NCBI GenBank assembly: GCA_021797735.1
Contig: JAJZZE010000024.1
Location: forward strand, 1-64,000
Direction: 5' to 3'
DNA length: 64,000 bases
From: Thermoplasmata archaeon
Lineage (GTDB): Archaea; Thermoplasmatota; Thermoplasmata; Thermoplasmatales; Thermoplasmataceae
A model generated the notes under the pieces. That model did no database searches. It was not told where the DNA came from and was given only the letters and a program-made list of their open reading frames with translations. Of the stretch, positions 44,672-46,611 are shown piece by piece (within the stretch, counting starts at the first letter, position 1; each line of letters opens with the position of its first letter). The translations under genes and the position numbers were made by a program.

Positions 44672-44782
44672 TTTTTCTGATGTGATAAAACTATATACAT
44701 TGAACTTTTATAATAACTAAAGAGCAAAATTGACATTGTATGGCACTTATGGAGCTATTAGATTTACCTAATAAATATTAAA

Positions 44783-44798
44783 TATATACCTGTATATA
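44783..44798 (+). promoter_or_regulatory. Candidate operator of the vapB gene
   Basis: A perfect 7-bp inverted repeat TATATAC-CT-GTATATA directly in front of the vapB ATG (44802), overlapping the start region downstream of an AT-rich TATA box (AAATATTAAATAT, 44772-44784). Antitoxins usually bind such palindromes to repress their own operon. Confidence 0.45.
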
Positions 44799-44801
44799 TG
44801 T

Positions 44802-45038
44802 ATGGTCAAGGTTATCTCAATAGGGGATGATGTTTATGAGGAACTGTCAAAGCGCAAAGATAATAAGTCCTTTTCCACGGTTATAAGAGATCTACTGAAA
44901 GAATCTGGTAAAAAACCCACAATAGGTGACATTGTGAAATATGAAACTGCCCTTTCTGATGAAGAAACCACCAAAACGAAAAAAGAGATACTGGAAGCTA
45001 GAAAGCGTTCTAAGACAGGAAATATAGAGGAGTTGTAG
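44802..45038 (+). CDS. VapB-type antitoxin (UPF0330/DUF217-like)
   Basis: A 78-residue protein: MVKVISIGDDVYEELSKRKDNKSFSTV is the typical ribbon-helix-helix-like N-terminus of archaeal VapB antitoxins of the DUF217 group, and the acidic/basic C-terminal tail is the usual toxin-binding part. It would neutralise a VapC PIN-domain ribonuclease. The toxin gene that follows four bases later is frameshifted and truncated, so the antitoxin is an orphan within this locus. It is GC-richer than the flanking native genes. Confidence 0.82.
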   Translation: MVKVISIGDDVYEELSKRKDNKSFSTVIRDLLKESGKKPTIGDIVKYETALSDEETTKTKKEILEARKRSKTGNIEEL

Positions 45039-45041
45039 GAT

Positions 45042-45116
45042 TTGGCTAGAGTGCTGGATACAAACATACTGATTGATCTGGCTCATCACCAGAAATACGT
45101 AAGGCTCTGAAGGTGT
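45042..45116 (+). pseudogene. Frameshifted, truncated VapC (PIN domain) toxin
   Basis: Starting at TTG 45042 the frame reads ARVLDTNILIDLA, the exact N-terminal strand of PIN-domain ribonucleases with the first catalytic Asp (LDTN). It then goes out of frame and stops at 45110. A one-base shift restores a PIN-like continuation (SSPEIRKALKVFTNGS) up to about 45130, where the sequence runs into the unrelated MFS fragment. Without the remaining acidic residues the toxin cannot be active. Confidence 0.75.
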
Positions 45117-45446
45117 TTACCAATGGGTCGTATCAACATTTCCGCCGATTGGCATATTTCTTATGGACGGCACGAAAATTACGACAACCATAGCTACAAT
45201 AATAATGAATGTCCCGAAGTACTCAAACGACTTCATAACACCGTATTCTGAAATAATCAGTGGCAGGTAAATAGCCCCTGCGGATGTTGATACCCCTCTG
45301 AAAACATAGAGATTTGATGCTGTTCTTCCAGGGAGCTCCTTTTCTGTTGTGCTCTGCATATAAGCACTGTAGAGTATGGCATATATAGAGAAATTAAAAC
45401 CGGGGATGAACCATGATGCAATGCCCAGAAGATAGTTGAAAAGCAA
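45117..45446 (-). pseudogene. C-terminal fragment of an MFS transporter
   Basis: About 109 residues with three hydrophobic helices of MFS type (LGIASWFIPGFNFSIYAILYS, GVSTSAGAIYLPLIISEYG and IIIVAMVVVIFVPSIRN), with KELPGRTASN in the loop, resembling helices 10-12 of a sugar or metabolite porter. No N-terminal half exists upstream in the window. The 3' end joins the vapC relic, so the fragment has been cut at both ends by rearrangement. Confidence 0.65.
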
Positions 45447-45512
45447 GAATTATTTTTTGTTTTATAATAATATTATAAAGAAATTCTAAAGGAGGGAACA
45501 GCCATCTACTGA

Positions 45513-45791
45513 TTAAAACGTATTACCATAAACATCATCATGAGACCCAATATCCACAAATAGTATTAAACAGTTCATATCATCTATTTTATAAAGAATG
45601 ACAGTCTTTTGGTTATTCACTTTAACTGCACGGATATTTTTAATTTGATGACTCTTTGTTTCTCCAATAAGTGGGTTCTCTTTAACTTTCTCTATTTTCT
45701 TTCTTATCTGGCGTTTGATGTTTTTATCTTTATATTTCTAAAGCCTGTCTTTAATAGCTGAAACATCAAAGGCGTATTCATTGCATGCCAT
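45513..45791 (-). pseudogene. RelE/ParE-like toxin gene with an in-frame nonsense codon
   Basis: Read from ATG 45791: MACNEYAFDVSAIKDRL, then TAG (45738-45740), then an open continuation (KYKDKNIKRQIRKKIEKVKENP ...) to the stop at 45513. The total is 93 codons. The downstream part has RelE-superfamily features: KSHQIKNIRAVKVNNQKTVILY and, near the end, FVDIGSHDDVYG. The gene starts 5 bases after the Panacea gene stop, so the two form an operon. The remainder is well preserved, which suggests a recent inactivating mutation, or possibly a start further downstream. Confidence 0.7.
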
Positions 45792-45796
45792 AAAAA

Positions 45797-46375
45797 TCAG
45801 GAAAATAACGGGTCGAGTTCTGTATCGCTTTTTATTATATGCTTGCCGTATATTCCTTTCCTTATATTCTCGTTATCTATTTCTTCAGCTTCTTTCCAGA
45901 ATTTATCAGAATTAACTTTACTGTAAAACCACGCATAGCCATTAAGATCTATTGATTCATTAAAATTCTTTGCTTCTATGTATGGTTCAGTATTATCCGC
46001 AAGTTTTTCAAGGGCCTTCCCATTTTTATTTATATATGGCTTTATGAGATTATCTATAATATTTGCTATTTCCTGGTTTATTTTAAAATCTTTCTGAATA
46101 AGTTCTGACTCTTCTGCAGTATTATAATTACCTTCTTCTTTTATTATAATAGTTTCTTCCAGATCCTCGATATTTTTTGTATCTTCAGAATACGGACCGT
46201 AATAATAACGTTTAAATGATAGATCGGATAATCTTTTGCCATATTTTTTAATATACTCATATTCAGCAAAATAAGCAAGTTTCTGTAATTTCTTCTGTTG
46301 TAATGGACCATATTTGCTGAGCAAATATTTAACAAGAGAGTCTCCATTTATTTTTACCATAAAAAGCAATCTCAT
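45797..46375 (-). CDS. Panacea-domain (DUF4065/SocA-like) antitoxin
   Basis: A 192-residue protein. Residues ~6-100 match the Panacea domain: SLVKYLLSKYGPLQQKKLQKLAYFAEY followed by FKRYYYGPYSEDTKNIEDL, the hallmark LQKLxYxA ... xxxYGPY pattern. Panacea proteins are antitoxins of many toxin types. Here the next gene on the same strand, 5 bases on, is a RelE-like toxin gene broken by a nonsense codon, so this is a toxin-antitoxin operon whose toxin is dead or altered. TATA-like GATATAAAAAG lies about 25-30 bp upstream of the ATG at 46375; an inner Met (46360, MVKINGD) is an alternative start. Confidence 0.78.
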   Translation of the reverse strand: MRLLFMVKINGDSLVKYLLSKYGPLQQKKLQKLAYFAEYEYIKKYGKRLSDLSFKRYYYGPYSEDTKNIEDLEETIIIKEEGNYNTAEESELIQKDFKINQEIANIIDNLIKPYINKNGKALEKLADNTEPYIEAKNFNESIDLNGYAWFYSKVNSDKFWKEAEEIDNENIRKGIYGKHIIKSDTELDPLFS

Positions 46376-46527
46376 TTATTATATAAAAACTTTTTATATC
46401 ATAATTGTAATATAATATATAAATTATATAATGTTATTTTTATATTATAAAAGGTGGATTGATAGTATATAAAGAGTAAGAATAATTATCCATTCTTACG
46501 GTATATACATTAAACCTTTGTAGGAAT

Positions 46528-46611
46528 GCGGAGGGTCGGATTTGAACCGGCGAACCCCTGTGGGAATAGATTTTGAGTCTATCACCTTTAACCTGACTCG
46601 GTAACCTCCGC
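46528..46611 (-). tRNA. tRNA-Leu (anticodon CAA)
   Basis: An 84-base class II tRNA on the minus strand. The acceptor stem is GCGGAGG/CCTCCGC. The anticodon arm reads ATAGA-CTCAAAA-TCTAT, giving anticodon CAA (codon UUG). A long variable arm (CCCACAGGGG) follows, and the T-loop is TTCAAAT with one C-A mismatch in the T stem. No intron and no encoded CCA. Confidence 0.9.

Follow-up and report, generated by a model that had tools for sequence, protein, structure and literature searches.

Is an intact Panacea antitoxin gene that stands directly ahead of a broken toxin frame, behind a tRNA gene of an acid-loving, AT-rich archaeon, part of a working toxin–antitoxin (TA) system, a product of faulty sequence, or the remains of something larger? 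The window, by which we mean the whole stretch of 64,000 nucleotides under analysis (contig JAJZZE010000024.1, assembly GCA_021797735.1), has a G+C content of 32% and belongs to a genome of 1.97 Mb in 57 contigs. Acidiplasma and a MAG with the name Ferroplasmaceae belong to the host's GTDB family, and the host itself is probably a Ferroplasma-like species. The initial annotation had described a Panacea gene followed after 5 bases by a RelE-type frame that a TAG interrupts at codon 18, all of which was re-derived by translation and Pfam searches. As to the length of the frame, the position of the TAG was confirmed, but the count of 93 codons had to be corrected to 92 codons plus the stop. The pair comprises the following features:

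45797..46360, minus strand: PanA antitoxin gene (Panacea domain, PF13274), intact, 187 aa from the conserved start
45513..45791, minus strand: pseudogene of a RelE/ParE-superfamily toxin, with 92 codons before the final stop
45738..45740, minus strand: in-frame TAG at codon 18 that breaks the toxin frame, located by translation

The PanA frame is open over 45797–46375 (minus strand), and translation from the upstream ATG at 46375 would give 192 aa. The homologues (42–76% identity) begin at the second ATG, position 46360, which favours a length of 187 aa. The protein carries a Panacea/DUF4065 domain and matched PF13274 (SocA_Panacea) with an E-value of 6e-12 and 46.8 bits against a Pfam cut-off of 25.7. 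An identity as DarG or SocA was rejected, as the PADLOC and NCBIfam matches did not reach the NCBIfam cut-offs and are explained by the common Panacea domain. No relative of PanA was retrieved from the PDB by sequence or by fold, the PanA model being weak (pLDDT 63), and none from the viral contigs searched for Panacea. Other families of the order yielded weak Panacea-like matches with 25–30% identity.

Translation of 45513–45791 (minus strand) gave MACNEYAFDVSAIKDRL, the internal stop, and then KYKDKN...GSHDDVYGNTF up to the final stop; 5 bp (45792–45796) separate PanA from the toxin frame. With the internal stop read as X, the frame matched PF15781 (ParE-like_toxin; 1.8e-10, 41.1 bits) and PF05016 (ParE_toxin; 1.2e-6, 29.4 bits), both above the curated Pfam cut-offs. 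The remainder of the toxin had been called well preserved, and indeed the frame stays open to GSHDDVYGNTF and shares 60% identity with the toxin of the relative G036, much like the intact toxin of G008 (61%). Its dN lies well below dS where dS is estimable, the NG86 dS being saturated for most of the pairs compared. Since the divergence of the window toxin does not exceed that of intact toxins, its stop is probably of recent origin, which agrees with the proposal that the toxin was recently inactivated beside an intact Panacea antitoxin. With its toxin gene broken at codon 18, the window copy of this PanA–PanT (PanAT) arrangement is a remnant and not a working system.

What the toxin was can be judged from its intact relatives. 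A profile of three intact toxins retrieved E. coli RelE from the PDB (3e-6), the G008 toxin matched NCBIfam RelE_StbE above the cut-off while its YafQ matches stayed below theirs, and PHROGs labels the toxin as RelE-like. An AlphaFold2 model of the intact G008 toxin (pLDDT 79) had E. coli RelE as its best Foldseek match (TM 0.70), followed by YoeB, YafQ, HigB and ParE; the RelE fold is thus assigned to this intact relative. Judged from these profiles and the model, a RelE-like toxin is better supported than a ParE-like one. Size, fold of the intact relative and a conserved C-terminal H-D-x-x-Y segment are shared with the RelE/YafQ/ParE superfamily (PF15781, PF05016, TIGR02385, TIGR00053), whose antitoxins are RelB, DinJ and ParD, whereas the partner here is a Panacea protein.

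Relatives were searched with PanA and with the intact toxins and the flanks were read, and ten additional loci emerged within the family. An intact pair is present in G008, in contig 29 of G007, in G261 and in WH5.bin26, and probably also in G036, where the toxin has no clear ATG, GTG or TTG start. The gene order is kept across the genomes with the pair, and the 5-bp gap recurs in the window's own genome, G008 and G007. The arrangement is thus a two-gene operon with a small toxin that is conserved in several genomes, and the recurrence of the same frame beside Panacea argues that the pair is more than a product of chance. The initial annotation had proposed an archaeal pairing of Panacea with a RelE-like protein and had staked it on TAG-free homologues in related genomes and on the same pairing occurring elsewhere. 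Both were found, with five genomes holding intact genes (one with the unclear toxin start) and a G008 toxin that is predicted to fold like RelE, so that the claim stands. The window's own genome contains no second copy of the pair; its only other RelE-like match (C43, 27% identity) follows an AbrB-like gene and represents an ordinary pair.

Decay of the cassette is common in the relatives. The copy of Acidiplasma aeolicum VT (L112 5001–5840) has an antitoxin frameshift in an A-run and an ATA where the G008 toxin has its ATG, the copy of G382 (L084 5800–6660) has one stop codon in each gene, contig 10 of G007 holds a truncated antitoxin and no toxin, and in G294 the toxin is absent; several of the relative genomes are metagenome bins, in which single lesions may be assembly errors. 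The G001 copy runs off its contig.

The surroundings of the pair place it at a tRNA gene, with these further features:

46527..46611, minus strand: tRNA-Leu (CAA), the docking site, with its 3' end (46527) facing the cassette (ARAGORN, Rfam)
46474..46526, minus strand: 53-bp leader from the tRNA 3' end to the block, found with the same length and a related sequence behind many other tRNA genes
46424..46473, minus strand: 50-bp conserved block, read as the end mark of an element family, located by pattern search
44677..46525, no strand assigned: variable island of 1.85 kb, delimited by blastn of the window against L032 and by sequence, absent from G004
44802..45038, plus strand: VapB-type antitoxin, 78 aa (PF02697, 2.8e-13, 50.9 bits)
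45042..45107, plus strand: putative VapC stub, 22 codons, with the PIN-like start LARVLDTNILIDL (by translation; PIN identity assigned by reading)
45117..45446, minus strand: fragment of a membrane-transporter-like gene, 109 aa (transporter identity assigned by reading; no Pfam match)

The tRNA-Leu(CAA) gene next to tfb occupies the same place in 10/10 genomes of the genus, and the conserved start of PanA lies 166 bp behind its 3' end. G004 has the same tRNA-Leu and the same genes on either side, with about 35 bp in place of 44677–46525. VapB and the cut-short VapC appear to be a second decayed TA pair, so that a dead toxin beside an intact antitoxin would occur twice within 1 kb. In G007 the flanks are about 95–98% identical and an insertion sequence occupies the tRNA-Leu(CAA) site. 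This insertion sequence (L033 1424–2884) encodes a 453-aa transposase-like ORF and lies about 10 bp behind the tRNA; the few bases left at the G007 site resemble the element leader.

The block reads TTTATATACT-N12-TTT..AATATAAAAATAACATTATATAA, is TATA-like with a palindromic centre, and stands exactly 53 bp behind the tRNA in the alignment of the PanA loci. A search with the block pattern (up to 3 mismatches) gave 20 matches in 10/10 genomes of the genus, compared with 0 for the reversed-pattern control; across the family, the block was present in 12 of 77 genomes and in only two of 19 genera, namely this genus and Acidiplasma. ARAGORN placed a tRNA end 49–54 bp upstream of the block in 16/20 copies, for which the chance estimate is vanishingly small, although the copies are related and the value is not an independent-trials probability. 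One further copy is cut by a contig end that resembles a tRNA 3' end, and three copies represent one element beside a match to a tRNA-Thr 3' end in inverted sense. Most block copies have no Panacea gene. Those in the window's own genome lie at C3:309–358, C12:77578–77627 and C22:93015–93064, and copies were collected in loci L120–L139 and L152–L155. Some copies of the block have no gene starting behind them, so its role is not just that of a panA promoter.

In place of Panacea, a small hallmark gene (DKYDLYDFTWK) without a Pfam family points towards the block, frequently with a winged-helix-like gene after it. Deeper inside the element, one family of tyrosine recombinases is represented on contig 3 of the window's own genome (PF00589, 6.9e-23), in G003 and in G006, and by fragments in G004 and G005. 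In G003, 18-bp direct repeats (TAAGCCGCCGACGGGATT) stand about 9.6 kb apart (L147, block to +9.6 kb). The recombinase lies immediately within the far repeat, at a tRNA-Thr, and the block-side tRNA part is inverted relative to other copies; the own copy on C3 has a doubtful 15-bp repeat. Within the own element copy on C12 (L142 motif +702..+992, minus strand) there is a fragment of 96 aa from the C-terminal domain of a DNA gyrase A (PF03989).

How does the pair relate to these elements? In G008 and A. aeolicum it lies between the block and the hallmark gene. The 3' ends at which the module begins belong to tRNA-Leu-CAA in the window's own genome, Leu-TAG in G001, Pro-CGG and Val-CAC in G007, and Leu-TAA in A. 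aeolicum; G007 carries the cassette behind tRNA-Pro(CGG) and a truncated copy behind tRNA-Val(CAC), and in G004 the sites at Leu, Val and Pro are empty. At the window locus, an element end at the tRNA 3' end is indicated by the 53-bp leader and the block at tRNA-Leu, together with the empty site in G004. No tyrosine recombinase gene lies beside the window copy, and neither a second attachment repeat nor a direct repeat of the tRNA 3' end was found on the far side of the island. What ties the window to an integrative element is therefore the block, together with the leader and the location at the tRNA. The pair also occurs without the 50-bp block or an adjoining tRNA (G036, G261, G382 and WH5.bin26), and the cassette is thus not bound to the tRNA-docked element alone.

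Taken together, the block, the leader and the tRNA docking, the recombinases in sister copies and the position of the pair between block and hallmark gene point to PanA and its toxin as cargo of tRNA-docked integrative elements, of which the window holds a truncated remnant. We consider it likely that the locus is what remains of such an element with a PanA plus RelE-fold type II TA cargo, in which the toxin was recently stopped and PanA was orphaned. The initial annotation had overlooked this setting: the cassette is the tRNA-proximal cargo of a tRNA-docked element and adjoins the second decayed TA pair of VapB and the VapC stub. The cassette would be built with the PanA antitoxin gene first and the RelE-fold toxin gene second. 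By analogy with known PanAT and RelE systems, working copies would make an antitoxin that binds the toxin and keeps it silent; the role of the pair would be either to stabilise the element through post-segregational killing or to serve as a growth-arrest or defence module. At the window locus, the rest of the element would have been lost and the toxin would have acquired its recent nonsense codon. With the toxin frame stopped, PanA is left as an orphan and gives no more protection against the toxin encoded beside it; it may still guard the cell against intact toxin relatives in circulation behind other tRNA genes of the genus. Toxicity, neutralisation, mobility of the element, the recent date of the stop and any role of the orphan PanA are the parts of this scheme that we infer, whereas the pair, its stop, the intact relatives, the docking at tRNA genes, the empty sites and the recombinases of sister copies are seen in the sequences.

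PanA might instead be kept for another job, either immunity against incoming elements with an intact pair or regulation, so that the dead toxin would mark an adaptive stable state and not a step of decay. The frame of PanA is open and its dN/dS against G008 is low (0.145/1.17) while the toxin is dead, and intact pairs are present in relatives. Moreover, the same genome appears to have lost a second copy: on contig C26, at tRNA-Pro (L102 2217–2290), the leader is kept and the sequence then skips 1,034 bp, which in G007 (L041 9741–10774) contain PanA and most of the toxin. ATACTCA is common to both sides, which suggests a deletion across these 7-bp repeats; a deletion and a stop codon thus seem to have cost the strain one toxin copy each. 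However, the toxin loss looks recent, so that an intact PanA is expected by default, and the antitoxin has been lost as well in A. aeolicum, G382 and contig 10 of G007. We therefore regard a retained function of this kind as rather unlikely.

A sequencing or assembly error at the TAG, with an intact toxin in the living strain, is a distinctly unlikely account. It would fit a single lesion in an otherwise well-kept frame without relaxed divergence, in a draft genome that is the only one of its species in the set analysed. Yet the TAG is a stop of the substitution type and not a homopolymer indel, the copies in A. aeolicum VT, G382, contig 10 of G007 and G294 have decayed independently, and the neighbouring VapC is likewise broken. 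Read-through of the TAG by a suppressor tRNA or recoding, which would provide low levels of full-length toxin, agrees with the conservation of the frame beyond the stop. Intact relatives, however, have no stop at the position of codon 18, TAG is an ordinary terminator that ends 9 of the 38 long ORFs of the window, and no PylS above the family cut-off was detected in the window's genome; TAG recoding was rejected on these grounds, and read-through is very improbable. Hardly worth entertaining is the shortened toxin from an internal start that had been suggested for this locus: after the TAG, the frame offers a GTG at codon 58 as its next start codon, then an ATG at codon 72 and a GTG at codon 79, but initiation at codon 58 would leave 35 residues and, judged on the model of the intact relative, cost the RelE fold its first strands and its two N-terminal helices.

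The reading as a decayed, tRNA-docked element with an orphaned PanA raises the question of how far the element family extends. Its tRNA targets include at least Leu (five times), Pro, Val, Asp, Met, Phe, Gly (twice), Glu and Arg, in addition to the Thr-linked inverted copy. Tyrosine recombinases of this kind normally keep to one tRNA gene, and one element family with so many tRNA targets would be unusual, if true. It might with equal chance prove right or wrong that a single tyrosine-recombinase element family of Ferroplasma-like archaea and Acidiplasma docks at many tRNA 3' ends, always with the 50-bp block 49–54 bp inside, and exchanges TA cargo, PanA–RelE for instance, immediately behind the block.

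The type of pairing is not new. Kurata et al. 2022 (PMC8832971) reported Panacea proteins from archaea and a wide range of toxins encoded with Panacea antitoxins, ParE-type toxins among them, while RelE/ParE belongs to the common toxin folds of the NetFlax network (2023, PMC10440598). Like the PanA–PanT systems of these reports, the locus has a Panacea antitoxin gene followed directly by a small toxin gene; unlike them, its toxin is a pseudogene with intact relatives that most resemble RelE, and a tRNA-docked element carries the pair as cargo. Neither this lineage nor its tRNA docking is described in the searched text of PMC8832971 and PMC10440598. According to the portion of PMC2718499 covered here, 40–50% of atypical gene clusters in Thermoplasmatales adjoin tRNA genes, and the portion covered of PMC12302457 reports islands next to tRNA genes in acidophilic archaea with RelBE, VapBC and MazEF cargo; an Acidiplasma island at tRNA-Leu(TAA) is also listed in this literature. 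As far as these portions go, the window resembles such islands in being a foreign gene cluster next to a tRNA gene with TA pairs as cargo, and they mention neither PanA cargo nor a shared 50-bp block at a fixed 53-bp spacing behind many tRNA genes. A brief search of the open-access literature likewise returned no block at fixed spacing behind many tRNA genes. What is new is the context, namely a tRNA-docked cassette with a block at fixed spacing.

On its own, the dead toxin would be ordinary TA turnover. The wider value of the locus lies in an archaeal Panacea–RelE lineage that has intact and decayed copies in close relatives, from which the order in which toxin and antitoxin are lost can be read directly. 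As the cassette is tied to a family of tRNA-docked elements, an anti-addiction role of the orphan PanA becomes testable.
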